NCBI RefSeq assembly: GCF_017876395.1
Contig: NZ_JAGINX010000001.1
Location: 248,001 to 312,000, forward strand
Reading direction: 5' to 3'
DNA from: Nesterenkonia lacusekhoensis
GTDB taxonomy: Bacteria; Actinomycetota; Actinomycetes; Actinomycetales; Micrococcaceae
Length of the DNA: 64,000 nucleotides
The stretch's first letter is position 1. Every line of letters begins with the position of its first letter. Positions 29,153 to 64,000 of this stretch are shown here, in pieces. The notes under the pieces were generated by a model that searched no databases, was not told the origin of the DNA, and saw only the letters and a list, made by a program, of their open reading frames with translations. The position numbers and the translations under genes were made by a program.

Positions 29153-29223
29153 GTTGTTTGGGCGAAGAGTTGCCGTCTCAGAGCTCGCAGGCCGTTGGGA
29201 CGGCAACTCTTCGCCCACACAAC
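29153..29223. repeat. 71-bp palindromic element, copy 1
   Basis: Left arm 29153-29181 begins GTTGTTTGGGCGAAGAGTTG; right arm to 29223 ends in the complementary ACTCTTCGCCCACACAAC. Same length and sequence as copies at 35130, 40526 and 63079. Intergenic here, between the methyltransferase start and the siderophore operon. Confidence 0.9.
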
Positions 29224-29311
29224 TCCTGGAGGACACGCCCTGCCCACACTCTGAGACTGCGGCCTCGGAGGAGTTGCGGTCCTTGAGTTATGTCTGTAGG
29301 TTCTTTTCTGC

Positions 29312-29330
29312 TTAGGATAGGCTAAGTGCA
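29312..29330 (+). promoter_or_regulatory. DtxR/IdeR-type iron box
   Basis: TTAGGATAGGCTAAGTGCA matches the 19-bp DtxR/IdeR consensus (TTAGGTTAGGCTAACCTAA) in most positions of the first 14. It lies just upstream of CATAAT (29338-29343), a good -10 for the siderophore-binding protein gene, so Fe-loaded DtxR would block the promoter. Confidence 0.75.
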
Positions 29331-29397
29331 AGGTTGGCATAATAGAGAACTCCACTCTTCGCTCAGTCGATCTCACTCTCTCCGAGGAAGGTTCCCC

Positions 29398-30432
29398 ATG
29401 CTCGCAACCACTACGTCCCAGGCGTCTGCGCCGCATCGCCGCCGCGCAGCCGGCATCCTCTCCGCAGCGGCAGCCTCCGTTCTGCTGCTCTCCGCCTGCG
29501 CCGACGCCGAAGCAGAGAGCGGCAGCGCCGCCGGCTCCGGCGAGACCATCACTGTGGAGGATGACCACGGCACCCATGAGATCGACCTGGACAGCATCGA
29601 GTCCGTCGGCGCCTTCGACAACCGAAGCTTCCGGCTGCTGGAGGATCTCGGTGTGGAGCTGTCCGTGGCGCCCCGGGGCCTGATGCAGCCCCACGTCCAC
29701 GAGACCTATGCCGAGGACGAGAGCATCCTGGACACCGGCAACCACCGCGAGCCCGACCTCGAGCAGCTCGCCGCCGCCCAGCCCGACCTGGTGATCACCG
29801 GCCAGCGCTACTCCGAGTACTACGACGAGATGGCCGATCTGATGCCGGAGGACGGCGTCATCCTGGAGTGGGATGAGGGGACCTCGGACCCGACCACCTT
29901 CTTCGAGGGCCTGCGCGAGCAGGTCACCAACATGGGCGAGATCTTCCAGGCCGAGGAGGAGGCCGATGAGCTCATCGCCGAGCTCGATGAGGCCCTGGAG
30001 CGTGTGGAGTCCGCCTACAACGGCGAGGATACGGTGATGGGCCTGGTCACCTCCGGCGGCGACATCAACTATGCCGGTCCCAATCAGGGCCGCGGCGTGG
30101 CTCCGCTCTTCCAGGAGTTCGACCTGGAGCCGGCGCTGGAGGTGGATGACGAATCCACCGACCATGAGGGTGACGACATCTCCGTGGAGGCCATCGCAGA
30201 CTCGGATCCGGAGTGGATTCTCGTGCTGGACCGCGACGGCATGATGCCGGATGACCCGGAGTACACCGCGGCCGATGAGCTGATCGCCGACTCCCCGGCT
30301 CTTCAGCAGACCTCCGCGATCGAGAACGATCAGATCGTCTACATGCCGCAGAACATGTACATCACCGAGGACATCCAGGCCTACACGGAGTTCCTCAACG
30401 ATTTCGCCGATGCCCTGGAGGAGGCTGAGTAA
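29398..30432 (+). CDS. Iron-siderophore ABC transporter substrate-binding lipoprotein
   Basis: Lipoprotein signal (SVLLLSACADAE, Cys about 36) and a FepB/FhuD-type periplasmic-binding fold: GAFDNRSFRLLEDLGVEL, HRRNHREPDLEQLAAAQPDLV-like spacing (GNHREPDLEQLAAAQPDLVI), and DPEWILVLDRDGM. 344 residues; the acidic mature protein resembles binding proteins for catecholate or hydroxamate siderophores, ligand not determinable. ATG at 29398 has GAGGAAGG (29384-29391) at good distance. First gene of a four-gene importer with two permeases and an ATPase. Confidence 0.92.
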   Translation: MLATTTSQASAPHRRRAAGILSAAAASVLLLSACADAEAESGSAAGSGETITVEDDHGTHEIDLDSIESVGAFDNRSFRLLEDLGVELSVAPRGLMQPHVHETYAEDESILDTGNHREPDLEQLAAAQPDLVITGQRYSEYYDEMADLMPEDGVILEWDEGTSDPTTFFEGLREQVTNMGEIFQAEEEADELIAELDEALERVESAYNGEDTVMGLVTSGGDINYAGPNQGRGVAPLFQEFDLEPALEVDDESTDHEGDDISVEAIADSDPEWILVLDRDGMMPDDPEYTAADELIADSPALQQTSAIENDQIVYMPQNMYITEDIQAYTEFLNDFADALEEAE

Positions 30433-30456
30433 GGCTCAGCTGGCTTCGGAGGCTCA

Positions 30457-30497
30457 GGGTGATGGGCGTAAGGACTTTGTCCTCTCGTCCATCACCC
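30457..30497 (+). terminator. Two-step hairpin after the binding-protein gene
   Basis: Outer arms GGGTGATGG (30457-30465) and CCATCACCC (30489-30497), inner AGGAC/GTCCT. Placed between the binding protein and the permeases, it may reduce read-through so that the binding protein is made in excess. Confidence 0.65.
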
Positions 30498-30516
30498 TTA
30501 GGATTGCCTCACCGCT
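30498..30516 (+). promoter_or_regulatory. Possible second DtxR-type box before the permease genes
   Basis: TTAGGATTGCCTCACCGCT keeps the TTAGG, GCCT and CACC elements of the DtxR consensus but is weaker than the box at 29312. It directly follows the hairpin, 44 bp before the first permease start, suggesting an internal iron-controlled promoter. Confidence 0.4.
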
Positions 30517-30559
30517 TTTAGCGCACTCGCCCCTGCTCTCACGCTGACGGAAGCCCTCT

Positions 30560-31603
30560 ATGACCACCACCCTGCGTCAGGACGTCTCGCAGACCAGCCG
30601 AGACATCCTCGTGGATGATCCGCGCACCCGTCGGCACCGGCGGCTGTGGACGCCGGCGTTCCTCCTGGCGGTCCTGGTCACCCTGGGCCTGCTGGTGCTC
30701 TCCCTGGTGGTCGGCCAGTTCGACGTCTTCGGCGGAGAGGACTGGGAGAACTTCTGGATGTTCGGCATCACGCGAGTGCCGCGCACCGTCGCTTTGGTCC
30801 TGGCCGGCGCGGCCATGGCCATGTGTGGGGTCATCATGCAGCTGCTGACCCAGAACCGGTTTGTGGAGCCCTCCACGATGGGCACCACCGAATGGGCCGG
30901 ACTCGGCCTCATCCTGGTCATGTGGCTCTACCCCTCCGCCTCTCTGGGGGAGCGGATGATCGGGGCCGTGATCATGTCCTTCGTGGGCACTATGGTCTTC
31001 TTCCTCTTCCTGCGCCGGGTCTCGCTGAAGTCCAGTCTGATCGTGCCGATCATCGGCATCATGCTCGGCGCCGTCGTCTCCTCCTTCACCACGTACCTGG
31101 CGCTGATGACCGACCGGCTCCAGACGCTGGGCATCTGGTTCCAAGGCTCCTTCACCGGAATCATCCAGGGCCGCTACGAGCTGCTGTGGATCGTGCTGGC
31201 CGTGACAGTGGCGGTGTTCCTGGTGGCCGACCAGTTCACCGTGGCGGGCCTGGGTCGAGACATGGCCACCAATGTGGGCCTGAACTACGCCTTGGTGCTG
31301 TTCATGGGCACTGCCATGGTGGCCGTGGCCACCGGAGTCACCGCCACCGTCGTCGGTACTCTGCCGTTCCTGGGACTGGTGGTCCCCAACATCGTGGCCC
31401 TGTTCCGCGGTGACGATCTGCGCACCAACCTGCCCTGGGTGGTGCTGGTGGGCATCTGCACCGTCACCATCTGTGACCTGATCGGCCGCACGATCATCGC
31501 TCCCTTCGAGATCCCGGTGGGCATGGTGCTGGGCCTGGTGGGCGGCGTCGTCTTCCTGGCTCTGCTGCTGCGCCAGCGCCGTCGGGGAGGCCTGGTCAGC
31601 TGA
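30560..31603 (+). CDS. FecCD-family siderophore permease, subunit 1
   Basis: Membrane permease with about nine hydrophobic helices. FecCD signatures: TRVPRTVALVLAGAAMAMCGVIMQ, NRFVEPSTMGTTEWAGLG and LPFLGLVVPNIVALFRGDD (the ATPase-contact EAA-like region) and GRTIIAPFEIPVGMVLGLVG. 347 residues. The stop overlaps the next gene's ATG (TGATG). Confidence 0.92.
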   Translation: MTTTLRQDVSQTSRDILVDDPRTRRHRRLWTPAFLLAVLVTLGLLVLSLVVGQFDVFGGEDWENFWMFGITRVPRTVALVLAGAAMAMCGVIMQLLTQNRFVEPSTMGTTEWAGLGLILVMWLYPSASLGERMIGAVIMSFVGTMVFFLFLRRVSLKSSLIVPIIGIMLGAVVSSFTTYLALMTDRLQTLGIWFQGSFTGIIQGRYELLWIVLAVTVAVFLVADQFTVAGLGRDMATNVGLNYALVLFMGTAMVAVATGVTATVVGTLPFLGLVVPNIVALFRGDDLRTNLPWVVLVGICTVTICDLIGRTIIAPFEIPVGMVLGLVGGVVFLALLLRQRRRGGLVS

Positions 31604-32658
31604 TGTTCAAGCCGAGAGCCGCGGCACCTGCGCGCCGCCGAGACGCCGCTGAGCGCCCCCGGCGCTCCGGCCCGATCACCGGTCCGCAGCACAGGCGCCG
31701 CTATGTGATCACCATGTCGGTGCTGGTGCTTGCGGCGTTGGGCCTGACCTTCGGCATCATGACCTGGGACAACCCGGCCGAGACCGGTTCTCGTCCGTGG
31801 TGGCTGATCGTGGACATGCGGCGGGACTCGCTGATCACCATCGCCGTGGTGGCGCTGTGTCACGCGGTGGCCACCGTGGCATTCCAGACGGCCGTGAACA
31901 ACCGCATCCTGACCCCCGGGATCATGGGCTTCGGCTCGCTCTACACGGCCATCCAGACCGGGGCGGTGTTTCTGCTGGGTGCCGGCGGGTCAGCCGCACT
32001 GGTCGGCGTCGGGCCCTTCCTGCTGCAGATGGTGGCCATGGTGCTGCTGGCGACGCTGCTCTACACCTGGCTGCTGAGCGGAAAGTTCTCCAACATCCAC
32101 ATCATGCTGCTGGTGGGCGTGGTGATCGGCGGTGTGCTGGGCTCGCTGTCGAACTTTATGCAGCGGATGCTGACCCCTTCGGAGTTCGACGTGCTCACCG
32201 CGCGTCTCTTCGGCAACATCTCCAACGCCCGGGCGGACTACCTGCCCTATGCCATCCCGCTGGTGCTTGTGGCCGTCGTGCTGATCTGGCTGCGGGCGAA
32301 CTCGCTCAACGTCCTGGCCCTGGGCAGAAACACTGCCCAGAATCTGGGTCTGAACCATCAGCGTGAGCTGATCATCGTCATGGCGCTGGTCTCGCTGCTG
32401 GTGGCTGTGGCCACGGCGCTGGTCGGTCCCATGATGTTCCTGGGCTTCCTCTCGGCCACGTTGGCCTACCAGTTCGGCGACACCTATTCCCACCGCATGC
32501 TCTTCCCAATGGCGGCGCTCTTCGGCTACACCATCCTGGCCGCCAGCTACTTCGTCCTGCGCCACATCTGGGACGCCGGGGGAGCGGTCACCGTGATCGT
32601 GGAGCTGATCGGCGGACTGGTCTTCCTGATCGTTCTGATGAGAAAGGGGCGCTTGTGA
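31603..32658 (+). CDS. FecCD-family siderophore permease, subunit 2
   Basis: Second half of the heterodimeric permease: RTPGIMG-type segment (NNRILTPGIMGFGSLYTAIQ), a NFMQRMLTPSEFD loop, ALGRNTAQNLGLNHQRELI and GPMMFLGFLSATLAYQFGDT. The Arg-rich first 40 residues are cytoplasmic. 351 residues. Ends inside the ATPase gene start (GTGA overlap). Confidence 0.92.
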   Translation: MFKPRAAAPARRRDAAERPRRSGPITGPQHRRRYVITMSVLVLAALGLTFGIMTWDNPAETGSRPWWLIVDMRRDSLITIAVVALCHAVATVAFQTAVNNRILTPGIMGFGSLYTAIQTGAVFLLGAGGSAALVGVGPFLLQMVAMVLLATLLYTWLLSGKFSNIHIMLLVGVVIGGVLGSLSNFMQRMLTPSEFDVLTARLFGNISNARADYLPYAIPLVLVAVVLIWLRANSLNVLALGRNTAQNLGLNHQRELIIVMALVSLLVAVATALVGPMMFLGFLSATLAYQFGDTYSHRMLFPMAALFGYTILAASYFVLRHIWDAGGAVTVIVELIGGLVFLIVLMRKGRL

Positions 32659-33413
32659 GCATCACACTGACCGACGTCGCCAAGGACTATTCCTCGAGCG
32701 TGAAGATCGGGCCGGTCACCACCGAGATCCAGTCCGGCGGTGTGACTGCGCTGGTGGGCCCCAACGGTGCGGGCAAGTCCACCATCCTCACGATGATCGG
32801 GCGGCTGCTGGACATCGACACCGGTGAGATCACGGTGGCCGGCCATGACGTGGTCAACACGCCCTCGAAGACCATCGCCAAGATCCTCTCGGTGCTGCGC
32901 CAGGAGAACCACTTCGTCACCCGGCTGACGGTGCGTCAGCTGGTGGGATTCGGGCGGTTCCCGCATTCGAAGGGCCGGCTGACCATCGGCGACGAGAGGT
33001 ACATCTCCGAGGCCATCGACTTCCTGAATCTGACCGATCTGGAGGACCGGTACCTGGATCAGCTCTCCGGCGGGCAGCGCCAGCGGGCCTATGTGGCCAT
33101 GGTGCTGGCGCAGAACACCGACTACGTGCTGCTGGACGAGCCGCTTAACAACTTGGACATGCAGCATGCGGTCCAGATGATGAAGCAGCTGCGCCGGGCC
33201 GCCGATGAGCTGGGACGCACTGTGGTGATCGTGCTGCACGACATCAACTTCGCCGCCCACTACTCGGACAGGATCCTGGCGATGAAGGATGGCCAGGTGG
33301 TCGAGCACGGGACCCCGCGGGAGATCATGCGCGATGAGGTGCTCACCGGCATCTTCAACACCGACATCCAGGTGATCGAGGGTCCCAGCGGCCCGCTGGC
33401 GGTGTACTACTGA
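32655..33413 (+). CDS. Iron-siderophore ABC transporter ATPase
   Basis: Walker A VGPNGAGKSTILTMIG, Q-loop VLRQENHF, ABC signature LSGGQRQRAYVAMVLAQ, Walker B YVLLDEPLNNLD, H-loop VIVLHDINFAAHYSD. 252 residues, FepC-type. GTG start at 32655 overlaps the permease stop. A strong terminator hairpin begins at its stop codon. Confidence 0.95.
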   Translation: MSITLTDVAKDYSSSVKIGPVTTEIQSGGVTALVGPNGAGKSTILTMIGRLLDIDTGEITVAGHDVVNTPSKTIAKILSVLRQENHFVTRLTVRQLVGFGRFPHSKGRLTIGDERYISEAIDFLNLTDLEDRYLDQLSGGQRQRAYVAMVLAQNTDYVLLDEPLNNLDMQHAVQMMKQLRRAADELGRTVVIVLHDINFAAHYSDRILAMKDGQVVEHGTPREIMRDEVLTGIFNTDIQVIEGPSGPLAVYY

Positions 33414-33448
33414 TTGCGCCTGTCTCACTGTCTGAGACAGGCGCAATC
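33412..33448 (+). terminator. Terminator of the siderophore operon
   Basis: Perfect 16-bp stem GATTGCGCCTGTCTCA (33412-33427) with its complement (33433-33448), 5-base loop, followed by TTCCT. It starts within the stop codon of the ATPase gene. Confidence 0.85.
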
Positions 33449-33552
33449 TTCCTGCGGGATTCCTGGCAAGCGGTCTTACGATCTTTGAGTCTGCACGCCT
33501 CTGCGCGTGCGATTCACCCAGAATCGTTCCTCCTTGGAGAACTGAGAGTCCC

Positions 33553-35025
33553 ATGTCAACGACAACCGACCCGGCCGCGCAGCCGGACCCGAACAGTGCC
33601 GATCCCAATGCCGGGGATCGGATCGCCGATGAGAACCTGAAGACTCCGCGGCGCCGCATCATCGTAGCGTCGCTGATCGGCACCACGATCGAGTTCTACG
33701 ACTTCTACATCTACGCCACGGCGGCCGTCTCGGTCTTCCCGATCCTCTTCTTCACCGCAGAGGACGACGGGGCCGCCCTGCTGGCCTCCATGGCCACCTT
33801 CGGTGCAGCCTTCGTGGCACGACCGCTGGGCGCTGTGCTCTTCGGGCATCTGGGCGACACCATCGGGCGCAAGGCGACGCTGGTCGGTGCACTTCTGACG
33901 ATGGGACTGGCCACCTTCCTGATCGGCGCACTGCCGACGATCTACCAGATCGGGCTCTGGGCTCCGGCCATGCTGACGATCTTCCGCTTCTGCCAGGGCC
34001 TCGGCCTGGGCGGTGAGTGGTCCGGCGCAGCCCTGCTGGCCAGCGAGACCGCCAAGCCCGGGAAACGGGCCCAGGCCGCCATGTGGCCCCAGCTGGGCGC
34101 GCCCTTCGGCTTCATCCTGGCCAACGGCCTCTTCCTCATCCTGGCCTGGTTCTACAGCTACGACTCCAACGCGATCCGCGCTCTGGCCGATGAGGACATC
34201 GACGCCGCACTAGCCGATCCCTTCCTGGTGTGGGGCTGGCGCATCCCGTTCCTGCTCTCTGTGGTGATGGTCGGCATCGGGCTCTATGTCCGCCTGCGGA
34301 TCGAGGAGACCCCCGTCTTCGCCAAGGCGCTGGAGAACAAGGAGAAGACCAAGGTCCCGGTGGGCGAGGTCTTCCGCAAGAACTGGCGCGAGATCATCCT
34401 GGGCACCTTCATCATGCTGGCCACCTACGGCCTGTTCTACCTGATGACCACCTGGATCCTCTCCTACTCGATCGCCGCTCCCGGCGAGGACGGCACCCAG
34501 GGACTGGGCTATGACTACATGGACTTCCTGATCCTGCAGGTCGTGGCCATCGTGTTCTTCGCGATCTTCGTGCCGGTCGCCGGCCGTCTGGCCGACACCT
34601 TCGGCCGCCGTCGGATGCTGATGGTCACCACTGCGGGCATCATGATCTTCGGCTGCACCTTCGGCTTCTGGCTCAGCGCTGAGAACATCGGCTCCGGCGA
34701 GGACCTGAACGTCTGGCAGATGCTCATCTTCCTGTGCGTGGGCATGTCCCTGATGGGTCTGACCTTCGGCCCCATGTCGGCCTACCTGCCGGAGCTCTTC
34801 CCCACCAACACCCGCTACACCGGCTCCGGGGTGGCCTACAATCTGTCCTCGATCCTCGGTGCGGCGCTGACCCCATTCGTCGCCGTGTGGCTGGTCCAGA
34901 CCTACGCCGTGTGGGCGGTGGGGCTCTACTTGGCCCTCCTGGGCGCCCTGACCATGATCAGCCTCATCCTCTCTCCGGAGACCTCGAAGCGGTCCCTCTA
35001 CACCGCGGAGAAGCAGGAGGGGTGA
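33553..35025 (+). CDS. MFS transporter, metabolite:H+ symporter (MHS) family
   Basis: Twelve-helix proton symporter. The family motif is GTTIEFYDFYIYATAA in TM1, then RPLGAVLFGHLGDTIGRKATL (MFS loop 2-3) and RFCQGLGLGGEWSGAALLA. MHS proteins carry citrate, shikimate, proline, betaine or other organic acids; the substrate cannot be told from sequence. 490 residues with a 35-residue hydrophilic N-terminal tail. ATG at 33553 has AGAAC-GAGAG upstream (weak). It has its own terminator and is a single-gene unit. Confidence 0.9.
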   Translation: MSTTTDPAAQPDPNSADPNAGDRIADENLKTPRRRIIVASLIGTTIEFYDFYIYATAAVSVFPILFFTAEDDGAALLASMATFGAAFVARPLGAVLFGHLGDTIGRKATLVGALLTMGLATFLIGALPTIYQIGLWAPAMLTIFRFCQGLGLGGEWSGAALLASETAKPGKRAQAAMWPQLGAPFGFILANGLFLILAWFYSYDSNAIRALADEDIDAALADPFLVWGWRIPFLLSVVMVGIGLYVRLRIEETPVFAKALENKEKTKVPVGEVFRKNWREIILGTFIMLATYGLFYLMTTWILSYSIAAPGEDGTQGLGYDYMDFLILQVVAIVFFAIFVPVAGRLADTFGRRRMLMVTTAGIMIFGCTFGFWLSAENIGSGEDLNVWQMLIFLCVGMSLMGLTFGPMSAYLPELFPTNTRYTGSGVAYNLSSILGAALTPFVAVWLVQTYAVWAVGLYLALLGALTMISLILSPETSKRSLYTAEKQEG

Positions 35026-35037
35026 AGCTTACACCCC

Positions 35038-35107
35038 CGACGACGGCGGCCCCTCACCGCGTGACTGTGACCTGATCACAGCGCCGGGTGAGGGGCCGCC
35101 GTCGTCG
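35038..35107. terminator. Terminator after the MHS transporter (shared 21-nt arm)
   Basis: Arms CGACGACGGCGGCCCCTCAC(C) at 35038-35058 and the complement at 35087-35107 around a 28-base loop with its own TGACTGTGACCTGATCACA partial dyad. The same 21-nt arm occurs in the terminator at 37639-37692. Confidence 0.8.
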
Positions 35108-35129
35108 TTGTGGGGGTTCTCCCGCGTGA

Positions 35130-35200
35130 GTTGTTTGGGCGCAGAGTTGCCGTCTCAGCGACTTCCGGGGCCTGAGACGGCAACTCTGCGCCCAAACAAC
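35130..35200. repeat. 71-bp palindromic element, copy 2 (best-preserved)
   Basis: Perfect 29-bp arms: 35130-35158 (GTTGTTTGGGCGCAGAGTTG...) and 35172-35200, 13-base loop. This copy defines the consensus. Intergenic, just after the previous terminator. Confidence 0.95.
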
Positions 35201-35265
35201 TGGGGAGGGAAGCGGGGAGGGATGCGGGAGCGCGTTCGGCGGCCCCGGACCTCAGTGCATCAGTG

Positions 35266-36111
35266 TCAGTGCATCAGGGAGATGAGCTCCGCGCGGTTCC
35301 GGGCGCCGGCCTTCTTCAGCAGCTTGGAGATGTGGAACTTCACCGTGTGCTCGGTGACGCCCAAGGTCCGGGCGATCTCCGCATTGCGCGCCCCGCGGGC
35401 CAACTCGTTGAGCACCTCGCGCTCACGCTCGCTGAGCTCAGGAAGCCCGCCCAGCGGAGCTGGCGCGCTCACCGGGTCCAACGGGATGCTGATGCTCATC
35501 TCCGTCCCCCATCCCGGGGTGGAGGCCACCGTCATCTGACCGTCCAGGGCGGTGACATGCTCGCTGACCGGGCGCAGGACATCGTCGTGGGGCTGAGTCT
35601 CCCCGCGGCCGTCGTCGCGGATGTTGATCAGCAGATTCAGCCCGTCGCAGTCCCAGTGCACCCGTGAGCGACGTGCCTCGCCGGCATTGACCAGCACCAG
35701 CAGCACGTTGCGGACGATCGCCCGTGCGGCATGGGCGACGTCGCCGGGCAGGGCGCGGCCATTGGCCGGCGGCTCCACGAACTCGACATCCAGCTCGCCG
35801 AAGCGGACCAGCGGCTGGACATCCTCTTTGAGACGCGAGAACGCTCCGACCACCGGCTCCAACGGGTCCTGATGCTCATCGGTGGAGGTGCGCAGCCGCA
35901 CCAGCGCCGTGGCGGCGATCTGTGTGGCCGTCTCACGGGCTCCACGGTCGTTCATCCTGGAGGAGCGCAGCACAGAGAGCAGCGACTCCAGGGTCACGGC
36001 ATAGCGGTCGGCCTGTTCGGAGAGCGCCCGTGCCTGGTTGGCCAGCTGCGCCCGGGTGCGGCGCTCGGCAGAGGGACCTGCTTCCTCTGCAGTGGTCTGC
36101 GGTTCAGTCAC
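35266..36111 (-). CDS. Histidine-kinase-type ATPase fused to a LuxR DNA-binding domain
   Basis: A 281-residue hybrid regulator. Residues about 25-100 are helical and resemble a dimerisation helix pair; residues 125-210 form a HATPase_c domain (N-box-like RAIVRNVLLVLVNAG, G1 DDGRG at 166-170, G2 TPGWGTEM near 200); residues 224-279 are a LuxR/GerE HTH (LSEREREVLNELARGARNAE, TVKFHISKLLKKAGARNRAE). No receiver domain, no TM segment and no clear H-box histidine are seen. GTG at 36109-36111 follows a TAGGCT box by 6 bases (leaderless). It lies downstream of hxlA on the same strand and may regulate the hxl genes. Confidence 0.85.
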   Translation of the reverse strand: MTEPQTTAEEAGPSAERRTRAQLANQARALSEQADRYAVTLESLLSVLRSSRMNDRGARETATQIAATALVRLRTSTDEHQDPLEPVVGAFSRLKEDVQPLVRFGELDVEFVEPPANGRALPGDVAHAARAIVRNVLLVLVNAGEARRSRVHWDCDGLNLLINIRDDGRGETQPHDDVLRPVSEHVTALDGQMTVASTPGWGTEMSISIPLDPVSAPAPLGGLPELSEREREVLNELARGARNAEIARTLGVTEHTVKFHISKLLKKAGARNRAELISLMH

Positions 36112-36152
36112 GGGCCCAGCCTAGCTGAGCCCACCTGCCCCCATCAGCCCAG

Positions 36153-36206
36153 GACAGGCGACGGCACCGCCCTGCCCGGGTCGGGGCAGGACGGCGCCGT
36201 CGTGTC
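36153..36206 (-). terminator. Hairpin between hxlA and the hybrid regulator gene
   Basis: Imperfect stem around CGACGGCACCGCCCTGCCC and GGGCAGGACGGCGCCGTCG. It separates the hxl genes from the regulator, which therefore has its own promoter. Confidence 0.65.
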
Positions 36207-36226
36207 CGGGTCGGTGGGCTGTCCGA

Positions 36227-36865: not shown

Positions 36866-36928
36866 AGCGGGTTCCTTTGTGTCGAGGGTCGTCGGGGAGA
36901 GGTCGGCGGCCGGTCTGGCCGCCGGGGT

Positions 36929-37501: not shown

Positions 37502-37576
37502 ATCTCGATCATGCGCCGCCGCGGAGCCCGCGCACAGCTCGCCGAAAGACCAGAACAACTGCCCCTTCGATCAGGC

Positions 37577-37592
37577 CTAGCCGTAGGGCTAG
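37577..37592 (-). promoter_or_regulatory. Candidate operator upstream of hxlB
   Basis: CTAGCCGTAGGGCTAG is an inverted repeat (CTAGCC/GGCTAG, 4-base centre), about 76 bp before the hxlB start. Its size and symmetry fit a site for a dimeric LuxR/NarL-type HTH, and a protein with such a domain is encoded just downstream of hxlA. The link is inference. Confidence 0.4.
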
Positions 37593-37638
37593 TGGATGCT
37601 GGCCGTGCCGCCTGACCGTGCCAGCACAGCAGGGTGAG

Positions 37639-37692
37639 ACGACGACGGCGGCCCCTCACCTGGAATCCCAGGTGAGGGGCCGCCGTCGTCGT
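37639..37692. terminator. Terminator between hxlB promoter region and accA3
   Basis: Perfect 25-bp stem with a 4-base loop AATC; arm begins ACGACGACGGCGGCCCCTCA. It follows the accA3 stop codon on the reverse strand. Confidence 0.85.
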
Positions 37693-37726
37693 ATGGAGCG
37701 GGCGGATCAGCCGCGGTGCGGGACCG

Positions 37727-39538: not shown

Positions 39539-39557
39539 CGTCGTGGTCGCTCCTGCT

Positions 39558-40289: not shown

Positions 40290-40618
40290 CGCAGTCCTCC
40301 TGCGTTCTTCCAGGAGTCTGGGCCCGGGCGTCCCCACAGGCCCAGCCGGTTGAAGGAGAGGCTGCGACGTCGCTGCAGTCGGCGGTCCCGGGGACCGGTG
40401 CTGCCGGCGTCGTTGTCCTGGAGAGGGTCCGCGGCGGCCAGCTTCCCGACGACGGCGGAGACGGCGGCCAGCTCCTCCTCGGTCAGCTCAGCTCCGGACA
40501 CCGTCAGCAGCGGCTGCTCATCCTCGTTGTTTGGGCGCAGATGTGCCGTCTCAGCGGCCTCGTCGGCCTGGGACGGCAATTCTCCGCCCAATCGATGGGT
40601 GTGGGCAGGCTCAGTCAC
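40286..40618 (-). CDS. accE: Acyl-CoA carboxylase epsilon subunit with in-frame palindrome in its N-terminus
   Basis: Small actinobacterial subunit that stabilises the AccA3-AccD complex. The family core is in the C-terminal 75 residues: [20 protein letters not shown], then an Arg-rich [28 protein letters not shown]. 110 residues, longer than typical because residues about 8-32 are coded by copy 3 of the 71-bp palindrome. The GTG at 40616-40618 overlaps the accD stop codon (GTGA), as expected for coupled translation, so the palindrome is almost certainly translated. Confidence 0.85.
40526..40596. repeat. 71-bp palindromic element, copy 3, inside accE
   Basis: Left arm from 40526 (GTTGTTTGGGCGCAGATGTG) is close to consensus; the right arm (to 40596) has decayed (GGGACGGCAATTCTCCGCCC). 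It is read in the accE frame without stop codons, giving [20 protein letters not shown]. Confidence 0.88.
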
Positions 40619-50893: not shown

Positions 50894-50967
50894 GCGATTC
50901 GAGCGGGGTTTTCGCCCTTTTCAGCTGAGATTCGGCGTCAGAAGGGCAGAAACCCCGCTCGAATCGC
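50894..50967. repeat. Long palindrome after gatB
   Basis: Arms GCGATTCGAGCGGGGTTTTC (50894 on) and near-perfect complement ending at 50967, 74 bp overall. Acts plausibly as gatB terminator, but the size and sharp symmetry resemble a dispersed palindrome; its GATTCGAG end resembles the sequence at the right IS30 junction (CGAATC at 9625-9630). Confidence 0.75.
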
Positions 50968-50991
50968 CTCCAGGGTTCTAGAGTGGCGGGC

Positions 50992-51783: not shown

Positions 51784-51786
51784 CAT

Positions 51787-54189: not shown

Positions 54190-54191
54190 TA

Positions 54192-54245: not shown

Positions 54246-54264
54246 AGCTTACTCCCAGGATTAA

Positions 54265-56700
<2,436 letters not shown>

Positions 56701-56769
56701 GGAGGCCGTGTCCGCCGTACCCGCAACCACCGACGATCCCCCGCACACGACGCCGAGAGAACGGACACT

Positions 56770-57618
56770 ATGACCACCACTGAGGAACTCCTCGACATCG
56801 CCCGTGAAGCCGCGGCAGCGGGCGCGGCCGTCCTGGCTGAGCGTCCTGAGGTGGCACCTGCGGGTGTGGCCCTGGGCCAGGAGCAGGCCGGTCTGCAGAC
56901 CAAGAGCTCCGAATCTGACCTGGTCACCGACTTCGACCGGCGGGCCGAGCGGGCCGTGCGCGAGGTGATCGCCCGGCGTCGTCCCGACGACGGCGTCTCC
57001 GGTGAGGAGTATGGCACCACTGCCGCCGAGGACCCCTCCGGCTACCGGTGGTCCATCGATCCGTTGGACGGGACCACCAACTTCGTCCGCGGCATCGTCT
57101 ACTACGGGACCTCAGTGGCAGTTCAGGGCCCCTCCGCGCACTGGCTGGCCGGGGTGGTGGACGCCCCCGCCGTCGGCCGACGCTGGTGGGCCACCCGCGA
57201 GGGCGGGGCCTGGACCACAGGCACCACCGCAGAGGGGGAGAGTGAGCCGGTGAAGCTCCAAGGTCCCCAGGGATCTCGAGCAGCCGGCATCCTGGCCACC
57301 GGTTTCGGCTATGACCCGGAACGCCGCGAGGAGCAGACCAAGGCGGTCACTGCCATGCTCCCGCTCTTCGGCAACCTGCGCCGGTTGGGAGCTGCGGCCC
57401 TGGACATCTGCATGGTGGCCGACGGGACCATGGACGCCTTCGCCGAGTACGGCCTCTGGGAGCACGACTGGGCCGCCGGAGCGCTCATCGCTGAGGAGGC
57501 CGGCGTGGAGATTCGTCGACCGGCTGACCCGAACAGCGCTGAGGCCCCAGACTGGTGTGTGGCCGGCGACATCGGCATCCCGCACAGCCAGCTGCGGCCC
57601 CTGCCCACCGGGCTGTGA
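56770..57618 (+). CDS. Inositol-monophosphatase-family phosphatase
   Basis: Mg-dependent sugar-phosphate phosphatase (SuhB/HisN-like). Metal-site motifs: DLVTDFDRRAE, GVSGEEYG, WSIDPLDGTTNFVRG and the C-terminal WEHDWAAGALIAEEAG. 282 residues. Could be inositol phosphatase or histidinol-phosphatase HisN; context does not decide. ATG at 56770, 69 bp after ligA. Confidence 0.88.
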   Translation: MTTTEELLDIAREAAAAGAAVLAERPEVAPAGVALGQEQAGLQTKSSESDLVTDFDRRAERAVREVIARRRPDDGVSGEEYGTTAAEDPSGYRWSIDPLDGTTNFVRGIVYYGTSVAVQGPSAHWLAGVVDAPAVGRRWWATREGGAWTTGTTAEGESEPVKLQGPQGSRAAGILATGFGYDPERREEQTKAVTAMLPLFGNLRRLGAAALDICMVADGTMDAFAEYGLWEHDWAAGALIAEEAGVEIRRPADPNSAEAPDWCVAGDIGIPHSQLRPLPTGL

Positions 57619-57629
57619 GCTCCTCAGAT

Positions 57630-58184
57630 ATGAGCATGGGCAACGCAGCCGCTGGTCAGCAGAAGCCCCAGGCCGAACCGGTCATCCGTGAGGCGCGTCG
57701 CGAGGACTGGGAGCGCATCGCGGAGCTGACCGTCACGGCCTATGTCAGCGGGGGCTTCCTCTCCTCGGGCGATGACTACATCGCCCAGCTGGCCGACGTC
57801 GGCCCCCGAGCCACCCATGCCACGGTCCTGGTGGCTGAGGTGGAGGATGAGTCCGGCAGCCCGGTGGTGGCGGCGTCGGTCTCCATCACCGAGGCTGGGA
57901 AGTTCCTGGCAGAGGTCTCCCGGCCCGGGGAGATGGAGTTCCGCATGCTGGCGGTGCACCCGGACTTCCAGGGCCGGGGGATCGCCCGCCGCCTAGTCCG
58001 GCACATCCTGGCGATGGCGGAGGCTCGCCCGGACATCGAGGCGGTCACCCTCTGCAGCCTGAAGACGATGACCGACGCCCACACGCTCTACCGATCAGAA
58101 GGTTTTGTGGAGGTCCCTGAGCGCGACTTCCGCCTCGAGGAGAGCGGGGCCAGCTTCCCGTTCTTCATCAGGTCGATCCGGTAG
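57630..58184 (+). CDS. GNAT-family N-acetyltransferase
   Basis: GNAT fold with IREARREDWERIAELTVTAY at the start, acetyl-CoA loop LAVHPDFQGRGIARRLVRHI and C-terminal LYRSEGFVEVPERDF. 184 residues. Substrate unknown. ATG at 57630 chosen where similarity and coding bias begin. Same strand as the phosphatase genes on both sides. Confidence 0.85.
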   Translation: MSMGNAAAGQQKPQAEPVIREARREDWERIAELTVTAYVSGGFLSSGDDYIAQLADVGPRATHATVLVAEVEDESGSPVVAASVSITEAGKFLAEVSRPGEMEFRMLAVHPDFQGRGIARRLVRHILAMAEARPDIEAVTLCSLKTMTDAHTLYRSEGFVEVPERDFRLEESGASFPFFIRSIR

Positions 58185-58239
58185 GCCGGAGCGGCCCGCG
58201 CTCCTGCAGGATCCACGGCTGCTGTGGTGGGATAGGGGT

Positions 58240-58827
58240 ATGACTGAGCCCTACACTGTGCTGACCGTCTGCACCGGCAACATCTGCCGCTCACCGGCGA
58301 TGGAGCGCCTGCTGACCCACCATCTGGGGGAGGAGGGCATCCGCGTGCACTCCGGAGGCACCCACGCCCACGACGGCGAGGACATGCAGCCTGCTATGAA
58401 GGAGCGGGTCTCCGACTACGGCGCCGATGCGCAGAACTTCGTGGCTGATCAGCTGACCCCGCAGATGGTGCGCGACTCGGACCTCATCCTGACCGCGACC
58501 CGCGTCCACGTGGAGGACATCCTGGCTGATGTTCCTGAGGCGGAGGACCGGACCTTCACCATCCGCGAGTTCGGACGGCTGCTGAGCGCCGTGGACACCA
58601 GCCAGATCGCCGAGACCGTAGGCCAAGACGCCGCCGTGGCGGATCGTCTGGCCGCACTGGTGCCGCTGGTGGCCCAGCGGCGCACCGGTGCGGCCTCCAG
58701 CGGGAGGAATGGCCGCGGACGTCAGGACGACGTCGTCGATCCCTATATGCTCCCGGACGACGTCTACGACGAGTCCTTCCGCCAGCTGCGCGAACCCATC
58801 GAGGCTCTGGCAGATGCCCTGCGGTGA
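58240..58827 (+). CDS. Low-molecular-weight protein-tyrosine phosphatase
   Basis: Active-site loop VCTGNICRSPAMERL (CxxxxCRS) just after the first strand and the general-acid Asp in DVVDPYMLPDD near residue 168. 195 residues, longer than classical LMW-PTP because of a Gly/Arg-rich insertion (about 150-162). Target unknown; could also be arsenate-reductase-like, but the DP motif favours a phosphatase. Convergent with the alanine symporter, sharing no spacer. Confidence 0.87.
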   Translation: MTEPYTVLTVCTGNICRSPAMERLLTHHLGEEGIRVHSGGTHAHDGEDMQPAMKERVSDYGADAQNFVADQLTPQMVRDSDLILTATRVHVEDILADVPEAEDRTFTIREFGRLLSAVDTSQIAETVGQDAAVADRLAALVPLVAQRRTGAASSGRNGRGRQDDVVDPYMLPDDVYDESFRQLREPIEALADALR

Positions 58828-60345
58828 TCAGTCCTCGGTCCGCTCCCCGCCGGCCAGGCGGTCGGCCCGCTCCTCCCAGAACCCGGCATTGCGGATCTGG
58901 ACCAGGCGCGGGTCGAACTGCGGGTCCTTGCCGGCTCTGACCTGGGCGCGGTAGTCGCTGAGCGCCTTGAACGCCGGCTGCTGGATGATCAGGATGCCCA
59001 CGATGTTCAGCCACGCCATGATGCCCACGCCGATGTCACCGATGGACCAGGCTCTGCCGTCAGCACCCATCGCGCCGTAGAAGACGATGAGCAGGATCGA
59101 GACCTGCAGCATGGCCAGCAGCGCGCGCTGGACGCTGGGGTTCTGGACCCGGCGGATTGCGTAGGTCAGGTTGGTCTCGGCCATGTAGTAGTAATAGACC
59201 AGCGTGGAGAAGGCGAAGAATGTCAGGGCCAGCGCCACGAAGGCCGCTCCTGCTCCACCGAAGGTGGTCCCCAAGGCGAACTGCGTGTACTCGGCGCCGG
59301 CCTCAGCACCCTCGGCCGGCAGTCCGCCGCCGTCGCCGATGATGTTCTCATCAGCGTCGAAGACCTGGAACATGCCGGTCGAGAGGATCAGGAAGGCTGT
59401 GGCGGAGCAGACGATCAGAGTGTCGATGTAGACGGCGAAGGCCTGGACCACGCCCTGCTTGGCCGGATGGGAGACCTCGGTGGCAGCGGCTGCGTGCGGG
59501 CCGGTTCCCTGTCCGGCCTCGTTGGAGTAGATGCCGCGGCGCACGCCCTGATCGATGGCCGCACCCAGGATGCCGCCGAAGACGGCGTGGGCGCCGAAGG
59601 CCGATTCGAAGATCAGCTGCAGCATGGCCGGGACCTCGGAGACGTTGGCCAGCAGCACGATCAGCGCGATGACGATGTAGCCCGCCGCCATGAACGGCAC
59701 GACCACTGAGGTGAAGTGGGCGATGCGCTTCACCCCGCCGATGATGATCACGCCCAGCACCAGGGCCAGCACGACGCCGATCATCCACCGGTCTAGCACG
59801 GGGAAGGCGGAGGTCAGCGCCCCAGACATGGTGTCGGTCTGGATGCCGGGCAGGAAGATGCCCAGGGCGATCACCGAGACCACGGCGAAGATCCAAGCGT
59901 AGATCTTCATCGGAACGGCCGCTCTGGTGTGCTGGTAGGCCTTCTCGAAGTAGAAGGCCGGACCACCGCGGTACTCACCGGTGCGCGGGTCCCGCTCCTT
60001 GAAGATCTGGCCCAGTGTGGACTCGACGAAGGAGGTGGCCGCACCCAACAGTGCCACCACCCACATCCAGAACACGGCACCGGGGCCGCCGGATGCGATC
60101 GCCACGGCCACGCCGGCGATGTTGCCGGCTCCCACTCGTCCAGAGAGCGACATGGTCAGCGCTTGGAAGGAGGAGATCCCGTCTTTGGAGCTGGTGCCCT
60201 CGCGCAGGTTCCTGATCATGTTGGGGATCTGGCTGAACTGCACCAGCTTGGCGCGAAGGGTGAAGAAGAGCCCGGCCAACAGGCACAGCCAGACCAGCCA
60301 GGGGCTCCAGACGACGCCGTCGGCCCACTCCAGAATTGCGTCCAT
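58828..60345 (-). CDS. Sodium:alanine/glycine symporter (AGCS family)
   Basis: Membrane importer of alanine or glycine with Na+. About ten to eleven hydrophobic helices. Family signatures: SFQALTMSLSGRVGAGNIAGVAVAIASGGPGAVFWMWV, GGPAFYFEKAY and NEAGQGTGPHAAAATEVSHP. 505 residues from ATG 60343-60345, which has GAGGAG well placed; the longer upstream frame is rejected. Divergent from the CPBP protease gene. Confidence 0.93.
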   Translation of the reverse strand: MDAILEWADGVVWSPWLVWLCLLAGLFFTLRAKLVQFSQIPNMIRNLREGTSSKDGISSFQALTMSLSGRVGAGNIAGVAVAIASGGPGAVFWMWVVALLGAATSFVESTLGQIFKERDPRTGEYRGGPAFYFEKAYQHTRAAVPMKIYAWIFAVVSVIALGIFLPGIQTDTMSGALTSAFPVLDRWMIGVVLALVLGVIIIGGVKRIAHFTSVVVPFMAAGYIVIALIVLLANVSEVPAMLQLIFESAFGAHAVFGGILGAAIDQGVRRGIYSNEAGQGTGPHAAAATEVSHPAKQGVVQAFAVYIDTLIVCSATAFLILSTGMFQVFDADENIIGDGGGLPAEGAEAGAEYTQFALGTTFGGAGAAFVALALTFFAFSTLVYYYYMAETNLTYAIRRVQNPSVQRALLAMLQVSILLIVFYGAMGADGRAWSIGDIGVGIMAWLNIVGILIIQQPAFKALSDYRAQVRAGKDPQFDPRLVQIRNAGFWEERADRLAGGERTED

Positions 60346-60471
60346 TCGATGATTCTCCTCGTCGGTTCCGCAGGTGCGGCGGATCACAGCAGCGCAGAGG
60401 TCTGAAGATTAGCACCGCCTCTGTGATGTCGACACTCAGAGGGCCGGGCACTCAGGGAGACCCCGGGCGAG

Positions 60472-61326
60472 ATGACTAGGCTGAAGGCTGTGGAAGCCTC
60501 CTCACGTCCTGCCCCGACACAGCCCAGCCGCTCTCCTGAGGGGCGTTCGCCGCGCTTCTATGCCTGGGAGGTAGGTATCGTGCTGGCGCTCTCCCTGGGA
60601 CGCAGTGCGATCTACGCGGTGCTGAACCTGACGGAGCGCCTGACGCGCGAGCCGCTGGGTGAGCAGACCGCCACGGTGCAGTCCAGTCAGTCCCGCCACG
60701 AGGCCTTCGACTTCACCTACCAGCTGCTGGACAACCTCTTCGCCCTGGCGCCGGTGGCGCTGGTGCTCTATCTCTTCTTCGTCCACGGAGGAAACCCCTT
60801 CCGCCGCTGGGGTCTGGACTTCGGGCGACCGGGCCGGGACTGGGTGCTCGGCGTCGGGCTGTTTGTGCTGATCGGGGCGGGCACGCTGGTGATCTACGGG
60901 ATCGGCCGGGCTTCCGGGGCCACAGTGGAGCTGATCCCGGCGGATGTGGGCGAGCATTGGTGGACCACGCCGATGCTGCTGCTGACCGCGCTGCGGCATT
61001 CGCTGCTGGAGGAGATCATCGTGGTCGCCTACCTCTTCGACCGGGCCCGCCGGATCTGGCCGGCGCTGCAGGTCTCCACCGTGCGGCCGCCGCTGAGCCA
61101 CCGCGGACTCTGGGTGCTGGTGCTGGTCAGCGCGGTGCTGCGTGGGGCCTATCACCTGTACCAGGGCTTCGGCCCCGGCGTCGGGAACTTCCTGATGGGC
61201 GTGATCTTCGGCTGGCTGTATCTGCGCTATGGCCGGGTGATGCCGCTGCTGATCGCCCACTTCCTGTTGGATGTGGTGGGCTTCCTGGCCTTCCCGCTGC
61301 TGGTGGCGGCGGTGGGGATCAGCTGA
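60472..61326 (+). CDS. CPBP-family intramembrane metalloprotease
   Basis: About seven TM helices with the Abi/CPBP motifs: 1 SLLEEIIVVAYLFDRARR (tandem Glu), 2 LRGAYHLYQGFG (His) and 3 LLIAHFLLDVVGF (His/Asp). The usual EExxxR motif is EEIIVV here, so the conserved Arg is shifted or missing. Related proteins include CAAX-prenyl-protease-like enzymes and bacteriocin-immunity proteins; substrate unknown. 284 residues. Confidence 0.85.
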   Translation: MTRLKAVEASSRPAPTQPSRSPEGRSPRFYAWEVGIVLALSLGRSAIYAVLNLTERLTREPLGEQTATVQSSQSRHEAFDFTYQLLDNLFALAPVALVLYLFFVHGGNPFRRWGLDFGRPGRDWVLGVGLFVLIGAGTLVIYGIGRASGATVELIPADVGEHWWTTPMLLLTALRHSLLEEIIVVAYLFDRARRIWPALQVSTVRPPLSHRGLWVLVLVSAVLRGAYHLYQGFGPGVGNFLMGVIFGWLYLRYGRVMPLLIAHFLLDVVGFLAFPLLVAAVGIS

Positions 61327-61490
61327 TCCTTCGCGTGGGGTGGCTCACTGCGTCAGAGTGGCCCCGTAGCGTGCGGTGCAGCCCGGTTCTCCCGCTGCAT
61401 GCATCTGCAGAATGCCCATGCGCAGCCGGGAAAGGGTGATTGATGCCGCTGTGCCCGTTGTCTCTCCCGTCCCGCGTTCTCATTCCGTCA

Positions 61491-61505
61491 GATTGTTGAA
61501 CAATC
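61491..61505 (+). promoter_or_regulatory. Candidate GntR-family operator upstream of pxpA
   Basis: GATTGTTGAACAATC, a near-perfect palindrome that fits the FCD-type GntR site consensus TNGTNNNACNA. It lies 55 bp before the pxpA start in an otherwise featureless gap (61327-61559). No GntR gene is in the window. Confidence 0.5.
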
Positions 61506-61559
61506 GTGTGATCTGGGGCATGCTGGTCGAAAAGCAGCGGCCACGGAAGGCAGGATGAC

Positions 61560-62333
61560 ATGACTGACCAGCGCAGCATCGATCTCAACAGCGACGTCGG
61601 AGAGTCCTTCGGCAACTGGCGGCTTCCGGACGAAGACATGCTCGGCGTGGTCTCCAGCGCCAACATCGCCTGCGGCTTCCACGCCGGCGATCCCAAGACC
61701 ATCCTCTCCAGCGTGCGCACCGCCGCGGCCAACGGGGTGGCGGTCGGAGCCCATATCGGCTACCGGGACCTGGTCGGCTTCGGGCGCCGGTTCATCGACT
61801 ACGACCCGGCCGAGCTCGCCGCCGACGTCCTCTACCAGCTGGGCGCCCTGGACGGGCTGGCCCGCACCGCCGGCACCCGCCTCAGCTACGTGAAGCCTCA
61901 TGGCGGCCTGTACAACACCATCGTCACCCACGAGGTCCAGGCTCGCGCGGTCATCGACGCGATCGCCGAGTTCGACGAGACGCTGCCGGTGCTGCTGCTG
62001 CCCGGCGGCTACGCTCTGGACTATGCCCGCGAACAGGGCCTGCGCGGGGTGGCCGAGGCCTTCGCAGATCGCAACTACAACCCCGACGGCACATTGGTCT
62101 CCCGCCGCGAGCCCGACGCCGTCCTGCACGAGACCTCCCAGGTGGTGGAGAACATGCTCCGCCTGGCCGAAGAGGGCGTGCTGATCGCTCGCGACGGCAC
62201 TCGGATCGAGACCGAGGCCGAGTCCATCTGCACCCACGGGGACACCGCCGGGGCGGTGCAGATGGCCCGCTCCGTGCGGGAGGCCCTGGAGAGGGCCGGC
62301 GTCGGGATCCGCAGCTTCGCCGCCGCCGCATGA
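61560..62333 (+). CDS. pxpA: 5-Oxoprolinase subunit A (LamB/YcsF family)
   Basis: Part of the ATP-dependent PxpABC system hydrolysing 5-oxoproline (pyroglutamate) to glutamate. LamB/YcsF signatures: [43 protein letters not shown] and [13 protein letters not shown]. 257 residues. ATG at 61560; GGAAGGCAGG upstream. The stop overlaps pxpBC (ATGA). Confidence 0.94.
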
Positions 62334-64000
62334 GCTCCCGGAGGATGGCCCCCGGCGCAGCTGCGGCGCCGGAGCAGACCGGCACGCTGATCCGTGGGCT
62401 GCGAGAGGCGGGCCCGCGGGCCCTGCTGCTCGAGTTCGCCACCCTCGACGACGTCCTCGCCTGCCATCAGCAGCTCACCACCAGTCCCTTGGAGGGACAG
62501 ATCGATGCCGTGGCTGCTGCCCGGACGATCCTCCTGCGCTTCTCCTGCCGGGCATCGGTCCGTGCGGCGCGCGAGGCGCTGGCCGTTCTGCAGATCGGAG
62601 CGTTCTCCGCTGGGGATGCCCGGCAGGTGGAGTTGGAGGTGGTCTACGACGGTGAGGACCTGCCCGCGCTCGCTGAGACCCTGGGCATGAGCGTGGAGGC
62701 GTTGATCTCCTGGCACACCGGCCAGAGCTGGACCGGCGCCTTCGGCGGTTTCGCGCCTGGCTTCACCTACTGCGTGCCGCAGGGGGAGCGGGCCCAGGCC
62801 CTCGCCGTGCCTCGGCGCAGCACTCCGCGCACTGCGGTTCCCGAAAGCTCCGTGGCCCTGGCCGGTGAGTTCTCGGCGGTCTACCCGCGCGTCTCCCCGG
62901 GCGGCTGGCAGCTGATCGGCCGCACCCCGCAGGTCATGTGGGACCTCTCCCGCGCCGAGCAGGACGCGACGTCGGCAGGATCTGAGTCCGCAGGTACAGG
63001 CGAGCAGCCGTCGTCGCCCGCTCTGGTCAGCCCCGGAGACGCCGTCCGCTACCGGGCCGTGGCGCCCGAGGCCATCGAGTTGAGTGGGCGAAGACGTGCC
63101 GTCTCAGCGACTTCTTCGCCCTCAGACGGCAAGTCTTCGCCCAAACAAGGGGAGAAGGTAGGGCAGGAGGCTCCGGCGCTGACCGTCCTCAGCCCCGGCC
63201 TGCAGAGCCTCTTCCAGGACTTCGGCCGCGGCGGACTCAGCGATCTGGGCGTCTCCCGGGCCGGCGTCGCCGATGAGGCCGCCGCCCTGCAGGCCAACCG
63301 GCTGGTGGGCAACACCGCCGAGACCCCTGTGCTCGAGGTGCTCCATTCCGGTCTGCAGCTGCGGGCCGAGCGCGACCTGGTCCTCGCCGCCTCGGGTGCT
63401 GAGTCGGAGCTCACCATCACTCCCGACGCTGGCAGCTCAGATTCCGACGGTGCAGCACCAGGTGCCCCCGTACCCGCACGCACTGCGCCCTCCCGCACTG
63501 CACCGCTGCGCGCTCCCTTCCTCCTCGTGGCAGGGGAGACCCTCTCGGTGGGCGCTCCCCGCCGCGGGATGCGCACTGTCCTGGCCGTGCGCGGCGGCTT
63601 CCAGGCCGAGCCCGTGCTGGGCAGCGTCTCCGCGGACACCATGTCCGGACTGGGCCCCGCCCCGCTGCAGGCCGGGCAGTCCCTGCGCGTGGGCCCGGAG
63701 CCTGCCCGTTCCGTGGGTGAGCCGGAGTCGGGCGACTGGGAGCCTGCCGCGGAGATCCCCGACGCCGGCCCGGTCACCCTGCGCTTCACCTATGGTCCGC
63801 GCGAGGACTGGTTCAGCAGCGCCGAGGCCCGTCGGCTCACCGAACAGGACTGGCTGGTCACCCAGGAGTCCAACCGGATCGGCATCCGCCTGGACGTCGA
63901 TCCCGAGGACGCACAGGCCCGCGCTCTGGAGCGCTCCGCCGAGGGTGAGCTTCCCAGCGAAGGCGTGGTCCGCGGCTCGCTGCAGATGCCCCCGGCGGGC
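62330..64000 (+). CDS. pxpBC: Fused 5-oxoprolinase subunits B and C (3' end outside window)
   Basis: One uninterrupted frame from ATG 62330 to the window end (557 codons). Residues 15-230 are PxpB/KipI ([47 protein letters not shown]); from about residue 283 is PxpC/KipA ([55 protein letters not shown]). The junction between the two is exactly a copy of the 71-bp palindrome (63079-63149), read in frame. An Ala/Pro-rich insert (63425-63500) interrupts PxpC. Fused B-C proteins are known in some bacteria; the palindromic linker is the odd feature. Confidence 0.92.
63079..63149. repeat. 71-bp palindromic element, copy 4, at the pxpB-pxpC junction
   Basis: Begins GTTGAGTGGGCGAAGACGTG and ends AGTCTTCGCCCAAACAAG, same length as the other copies. 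Read in frame it encodes [20 protein letters not shown], a basic Ser-rich linker. Confidence 0.88.

Follow-up and report, generated by a model that had tools for sequence, protein, structure and literature searches.

A nuclease-like gene family associated with its own dispersed palindromes in Nesterenkonia and other Actinomycetota

A 64,000-nucleotide stretch of the Nesterenkonia lacusekhoensis genome, called the window here, contains four copies of a 71-bp palindrome, which raises the question of what these palindromes are and what may have spread them. The window is C1:248001-312000 of a 2.74-Mb genome (G000), and the relative Nesterenkonia genome G005 was its main comparison partner. A first-pass annotation had described the four copies as a mobile repeat resembling repetitive extragenic palindromic (REP) sequences, Rickettsia palindromic elements (RPE) or miniature inverted-repeat transposable elements (MITE). 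We propose, with a probability of about 0.6, that the palindromes and a nuclease-like gene make up a two-part system, in which the palindromes are the non-coding, dispersed component and the gene often lies between its own palindromes.

All four copies were confirmed where they had been reported, at 29153..29223 (C1:277153), 35130..35200 (C1:283130), 40526..40596 (C1:288526) and 63079..63149 (C1:311079). The first is on the minus strand, as set by its loop, and the others are on the plus strand. Each is exactly 71 bp long, as had been claimed, and consists of a 29-nt arm, a 13-nt centre and a second 29-nt arm. The copy at 35130 was said to have perfect arms, and it is the sole perfect dyad, with 29 of 29 arm positions paired; 26, 22 and 24 of 29 are paired at 29153, 40526 and 63079, respectively. 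The common ends that had been quoted occur exactly in the 35130 copy but not in the others, and 40526 and 63079 depart from them at an end. The consensus ends are GTTG in this family (family 1) and GATT in a second, 70-bp family (family 2). According to a simple gene caller, the copies at 29153 and 35130 are intergenic, the latter between convergent neighbors. G005 has a palindrome with a different loop at the place of 29153 and no copy at the syntenic place of 35130. The other two enter coding regions, as the first-pass annotation had noted. The copy at 40526 is inside the frame of an acyl-CoA carboxylase epsilon subunit, whose gene is on the minus strand, and the copy at 63079 is in the linker from the CT_C_D to the CT_A_B domain of one open reading frame (ORF) that starts at 62330 and runs past the window end. 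The epsilon-subunit copy is common to G000 and G005 and was found in none of the 15 other genus frames read; a script recognised this frame in 17 of 29 genomes, and its N-terminal part is variable across the genus.

Pairs of palindromes flank one member of a single gene family in G000 (626648/627700), in G005 (C4:102892/103944) and in a third genome, G012 (C37:68850/70029), with a spacing of 1.05-1.18 kb. The product of the bracketed gene in G000 has about 308 amino acids, and family members typically have about 300-340. The G005 protein is 100% identical to that of G000 over query residues 2-298, and the differences are confined to the region near the start. A TatD DNase gene is located 3' of the G000 gene. 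Homologues were found in 28 of 30 genus genomes (E ≤ 1e-10) and in 59 genomes of a 119-genome sample of the order (E ≤ 1e-15), and seven matches in G000 itself were read as five genes, two of them split in two pieces.

The bracketing is specific when compared with other Nesterenkonia genes. Palindromes of 50-89 bp were scored if at least 17 of the 22 outer pairs, including all of the outermost four, were paired, in zones from -450 to +30 bp around the start and from -60 to +350 bp around the end of the stop codon. A gene with an upstream and a downstream palindrome sharing at least 80% of arm positions was called bracketed under this strict rule. Among the 73 homologues from Nesterenkonia, 29 were bracketed, and so were 9 of the 28 that other genera contributed; among 199 control ORFs, all of them from Nesterenkonia, there was a single bracketed case. 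The controls were ORFs of at least 250 amino acids with coding-like composition, from which two family members had been removed; their sources were the window and other stretches of Nesterenkonia DNA, many of which had been fetched for their palindromes. Control starts were the first start codon, and homologue starts were picked near the expected start. The 73 genus homologues exclude L040, L041 and L042, which are pieces of split genes, and the 28 other-genus loci are those listed from a longer list, including L163, which has an internal stop. The arm identity of the best pair had a median of 0.94 within loci (n = 45) versus 0.47 across loci. Presence of any palindrome, a less specific measure, was seen in 64 of 73 genus homologues, 21 of 28 from other genera and 61 of 199 controls. 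When proteins were clustered at 70% identity, 36 of 79 clusters included at least one bracketed gene, namely 27 of 52 Nesterenkonia clusters and 9 of 27 from elsewhere. The gene-palindrome association is real, though not universal under the strict rule.

The association extends to plasmids and to another order. In a plasmid collection, four of seven loci were bracketed according to a looser palindrome rule and to inspection by eye, two from Arthrobacter (L296 and L297) and two from Tsukamurella (L298 and L341), a genus of another order than the Micrococcales loci. The downstream palindrome of L298 begins at the first base past the stop codon. This 64-bp palindrome was listed at 19 places in 8 records, all from T. 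tyrosinosolvens, and since a palindrome may be listed once per strand, they represent about ten sites. Members from Nesterenkonia, other Micrococcales and Tsukamurella are flanked by their own, differing palindromes, and cognate single palindromes are scattered through the same genome where they were looked for.

As judged from profile matches, the protein is composed of an AbiEi-like N-terminal part and a nuclease-like C-terminal domain of the Vsr fold (DUF559/MTES_1575). Among 46 aligned members, Pfam searches at E ≤ 0.01 matched DUF559 in 32 and REase_MTES_1575 in 22 (best 3.6e-8), and PADLOC AbiEi models matched up to 38. A profile of the C-terminal domain gave weak matches in the PDB to 3hrl (E 0.002) and to 3r3p, a 'mobile intron protein' (E 0.056). 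D153, S205, E208, R212, D240 and G254 are invariant in all 46 members, and they include the acidic residues E208 and D240 of the putative nuclease domain. Database records label members 'hypothetical protein' or 'DUF559 domain-containing protein', and a 2013 paper terms the MTES_1575 domain a novel Vsr-REase (PMC3710099). No AbiEii partner was recognised beside the gene in five loci, four of which were judged by neighbor annotation names, with one neighbor being hypothetical.

At least three paralogues in G000 have a palindrome family of their own, with 16, 20 and 3 places, and the window has copies of all three families. Two palindromes of the same build that were absent from the first-pass annotation belong to the second and third families. 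The family-2 copy (GATTCGAGCGGGG...) is at 50894..50967 (C1:298894, plus strand), a place occupied in G005 by a complete gene unit whose palindromes differ. The other copy, of family 3, is at 1046..1117 (C1:249046, plus strand), and paralogue C1:453529 has a family-3 palindrome upstream; this paralogue is unbracketed under the strict rule. Family 2 has 20 places in G000 and 5 in G005, and all recovered copies (17 of 20 and 5 of 5) are 70 bp long except for one 67-bp copy in G005. Its alignment (A4) consists of 17 of the 20 G000 copies, three being unrecovered by the script, and three of the five G005 copies, the 67-bp copy and a degenerate one being left out. Family-2 copies 2397256 and 2399590 flank paralogue C1:2397661-2399517, and its uninterrupted counterpart in G005 (C1:190017) is flanked by family 2 as well. 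The G000 paralogue is split by an IS481-type transposase gene, and the 20 palindrome copies persist in this genome. For family 3, the counts are 3 in G000 and 10 in G005, the latter including a place of just 29 bp. The palindromes of the protein lineages are mostly 55-80 bp long with long arms, a variable loop and a lineage-specific sequence, and, over 37 bracketed loci, between-locus arm identity of at least 0.8 was restricted to proteins more than 60% identical. In addition, a 63-bp hairpin at 2481-2543 of the window (GGTGTGTTGAGATCTCGGGAAC...) is by eye like the palindromes flanking L118, a homologue in G006, and perhaps represents a fourth family.

Family 1 is dispersed and patchy. The search for further copies that had been suggested found 15 places in G000 by blastn with the 35130 copy as query (E 2.9e-31 to 8.9e-5, full or near-full length), a copy number far above chance expectation, and 16 places with the 2469674 copy as query, all on C1. 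At all 16, positions 1-71 of a covariance model built from 22 copies align to a 71-base stretch; alignment A2 excludes the 373519 copy. The model found three extra, weaker places in G000 (2143817, 2361277 and 2031433). By blastn, family 1 was found in 2 of 30 genus genomes, G000 and G005. The covariance model at the looser E ≤ 0.1 had matches in 9 of 30, and those beyond G000 and G005 were similarly built palindromes of other families, along with some plain hairpins. A one-arm pattern was searched in a collection of 84,980 species, from which the own genome was possibly excluded; six of the seven matching stretches were from N. cremea, and the remaining one, in a Dependentiae record, was taken as chance. 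In 245 genomes of the family, a loose pattern of the ends (RTYGNNKGGGCG, 45-49 bases, complement) had matches in 7, every one a Nesterenkonia (16 genus genomes drawn; 1 of 32 genera). Chance matches to such a pattern exist, because a backward version used as a control had matches in 15 listed genomes, most of them from other genera; the forward pattern matched no other genus. The listed matches are 70-72 bp palindromes whose inner sequence is different in each genome, with 13 places in G000, 7 in G012, 4 in G018 and 3 each in G004, G011, G019 and G029 among those listed.

Other kinds of element were considered for these sequences. An RNA element was rejected since A:C departures from arm pairing are as common as G:T departures, with 16 GT versus 13 AC in family 1 (binomial p 0.71) and 13 GT versus 9 AC in family 2 (binomial p 0.52). 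Covariation, which was above its shuffles for family 1 and modestly above them for family 2, was dropped as proof of structure. Integron attC sites were also rejected, with no search made for an integrase, since the core order of attC runs opposite to that of the palindrome ends, GTTG...CAAC.

Families 1 and 2 favor the 3' ends of genes in G000. Between convergent genes there are 20 of the 36 copies (18 intergenic and two overlapping an ORF end), and the corresponding background is 26 of 158 gaps (Fisher p 3.7e-6), all of at least 25 bp and from 40 sampled stretches, with genes called by a simple codon-usage script. For many of these copies, a stop codon is only tens of bases away. Three of the 36 copies are between divergent genes, and two are in reading frame (63079 by the gene script and 40526 by homology). 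No T run was found within 15 nt on either side of 23 listed copies.

Two side observations concern the placement of hairpins. A 1.0-Mb stretch, C1:841185-1847607, is free of all 36 copies, which occurred in 0 of 100,000 simulations for both families jointly; for the two families taken apart, the p values of the 0.84-1.85 Mb gap are 0.0007 and 0.0026. This stretch is possibly the terminus half, and an origin/terminus bias is merely noted, as GC skew was weak in the 40 sampled stretches and dnaA was not located. Moreover, hairpins with the arm ACGACGACGGCGGCCCCTCACC are found at 35038-35107 and 37639-37692 of the window, and a similar one is at 5074-5120 of the Arthrobacter plasmid locus L296. 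A hairpin in G005 corresponds in position to that at 35038-35107, and all of these are perhaps a conserved terminator family.

The comparison of orthologous loci, which had also been suggested, revealed presence and absence of palindromes but no clean junction. Of the family-1 copies, 283130 is the one absent at its syntenic place in G005, 150715 has no alignable G005 copy, and the stretch around 2469674 has been replaced, leaving a partial remnant. Three family-2 copies were compared in a single stretch: G005 lacks 2600292 and 2610365 and shares the third. Conversely, G005 carries a complete gene unit at C6:199764, and the syntenic G000 position has another palindrome and no such unit. These lineage-specific copies support mobility. 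At the family-2 copy C1:2600292 (L220, about 8270-8362), a tandem repeat of about 17 bp precedes the left edge and includes the first bases of the copy.

Several observations weigh against the two-part reading. The strict rule failed for 44 of 73 genus homologues and 19 of 28 from other genera, some with one palindrome and some with none found, and three of the seven plasmid loci (L299, L300 and L342) were not bracketed. One control gene in genome G016 was bracketed. At E ≤ 0.01, neither DUF559 nor MTES_1575 matches the G000/G005 member, which shows only a sub-threshold AbiEi_1 match; this member is assigned to the Vsr-fold family by homology. At position 251, where such nucleases may carry an acidic residue, Q predominates, and a single-sequence AlphaFold model was unusable, with a mean predicted local distance difference test score (pLDDT) of 31.5. 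Protein and palindrome similarity were weakly correlated (Mantel Spearman 0.149, p 0.010, 37 bracketed loci, L036 excluded), which suits fast co-divergence and does not prove recognition. No movement event was observed, and neither a precise empty site nor a target duplication was found between G000 and G005, because their flanks are too diverged for an exact insertion junction. Furthermore, 8 of 11 family-1 copies in the comparison are common to both genomes, with 5 others outside it; the common ones are 277153, 288526, 54790, 145056, 2549753, 2570409 and the two that bracket the gene, and in several of them the loop differs. Since these 8 of 11, and 1 of 3 family-2 copies, are common to both species, movement would be slow, and the alignments suggest slow gain and loss of palindromes. 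As a separate matter, resident copies may serve as terminators, since 20 of 36 sit between convergent genes, often near stop codons. The earlier description as a mobile repeat thus holds for dispersal, fixed length, patchiness and some lineage-specific copies, but the 3'-end placement speaks against a purely selfish one.

One alternative is that the protein is an orphan regulator of the AbiEi type, that the flanking palindromes are its operators and that the dispersed copies are the sites of its regulon. AbiEi recognises inverted repeats in the promoter of its own gene, AbiEi models match most members (up to the 38 of 46 given above), and many loci, bracketed or not, have an upstream palindrome. 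However, palindromes are also located directly 3' of the gene's stop codon, and the dispersed copies are misplaced for operators because they favor 3' ends, with 20 of 36 convergent versus 3 divergent. A length of 70-71 bp is also long for an operator, and the nuclease-type domain is conserved; we consider this reading unlikely. The convergent excess over background gaps and the long hairpins might instead indicate bidirectional terminators or 3'-end stabilisers spread by recombination, with the nuclease-like gene merely nearby. The first-pass annotation had argued against terminators, and the fixed length and the lack of a T run agree with it, although the copies between convergent genes may terminate. 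In addition, the sequence is lineage-specific, and matched pairs flank this gene family but only 1 of 199 control ORFs, which makes this second explanation quite unlikely.

An origin from a conventional DDE insertion sequence, with the palindromes as MITE-type derivatives and the nuclease-like gene as a passenger, would suit the long inverted arms and the dispersed placement. The bracketed control (L069 4713-5854, on G016 C5), an unrelated gene that is MerR-like by eye and sits between two 70-bp identical-arm palindromes, would also suit it. A passenger role fails to explain, however, that the same gene family is flanked by unrelated palindromes in several genera, and the flanks of family-1 and family-2 copies show no sign of a target duplication; we find this origin, for which no search for an insertion sequence with matching ends was made, very improbable. 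Still less credible is an addiction or defence cassette, made of the gene and two palindromes, that moves by homologous recombination between the palindromes. The AbiEi-like part and the whole unit in G005 that is missing at the G000 place occupied by another palindrome are in its favor, but solitary copies are poorly explained, and the five loci revealed no AbiEii partner (one annotated plasmid neighbor is hypothetical, and the TatD DNase is beside the G000 gene).

The two-part reading is the one that we set out here as a mechanism, and we infer that the protein recognises and spreads its own palindromes. The nuclease-like protein would bind the dyad or the extruded hairpin of its cognate palindrome, and the Vsr-like domain would nick at or near the palindrome ends. 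Such a nick could let the palindrome be copied by replication or repair into new places, mostly downstream of genes, and the same hairpin steps might keep both arms matched. Resident copies could later act as terminators or, rarely, turn into coding sequence. We lean slightly towards a broader claim, that these are a bacterial class of mobile palindromes driven by a Vsr-fold nuclease with an AbiEi-like part, widespread in Actinomycetota and analogous to REP sequences and their REP-associated tyrosine transposases (RAYT), and that many DUF559 and orphan AbiEi-like genes are the drivers.

This reading offers a testable role for the uncharacterised DUF559/AbiEi-like family and ties it to a repeat class. 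If it is true, the scattering of palindromic repeats through a genome can be the work of a hydrolytic Vsr-type nuclease and not of a tyrosine transposase, and REP-like systems therefore arose more than once. Each protein lineage has its presumed target beside the gene, and these ready enzyme-target pairs would be useful for studying the evolution of specificity. No paper linking the gene family to palindromes was found among the titles and abstract beginnings listed from the open-licence literature, and such a paper may exist elsewhere.

Several known systems share features with the one proposed here. RPEs are palindromic and can sit in frame within genes, and our palindromes resemble them in both respects; in contrast, just 2 of 36 copies are in frame here, there is a tie to a dedicated gene family, and the host is unrelated. 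Like MITEs, the palindromes are short, non-coding, dispersed and patchy with inverted arms, but the arms nearly fill the element and no target duplication was seen. The N-terminal part resembles the AbiE type IV toxin-antitoxin system in matching AbiEi models, whereas the protein has an extra nuclease-like C-terminal domain and, in the five loci, no recognised AbiEii partner beside its gene. The C-terminal domain has its weak match (E 0.056) to 3r3p, which we take to be of the Vsr-type homing endonuclease family; unlike those enzymes, the gene here is free-standing and bracketed by palindromes.

The closest comparison is with RAYT/REP. The first-pass annotation had looked to a REP-associated or IS transposase with matching ends to identify the driver. 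A search for the Y1 (IS200/IS605-type) transposase (PF01797) had no match in G000, while it was positive in 5 of 14 control genomes, and RAYT-driven REPs were rejected on this ground; the candidate driver is instead the Vsr-fold nuclease-like gene flanked by two copies. The system is not a member of RAYT/REP because its enzyme family, with a Vsr-fold/DUF559 domain and an AbiEi-like part, is unrelated to the Y1 transposase of RAYT and no Y1 transposase was found. Its putative driver would belong to another class of enzyme; being non-homologous to RAYT, the enzyme would therefore have a different cutting chemistry. REP repeats are described as 20-40 bp long with a GTAG end (PMC3733652), whereas the element here is one palindrome of about 55-80 bp (71 and 70 bp in families 1 and 2, with ends GTTG and GATT), with at most about 20 copies in the genomes looked at. 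The likeness is in the organisation. A 2010 paper describes a RAYT gene between two copies of its own palindrome, dispersed cognates and lineage-specific repeats (PMC2817692); here too, there is a bracketed gene, though not for every member, together with dispersed cognate palindromes and lineage-specific repeats.

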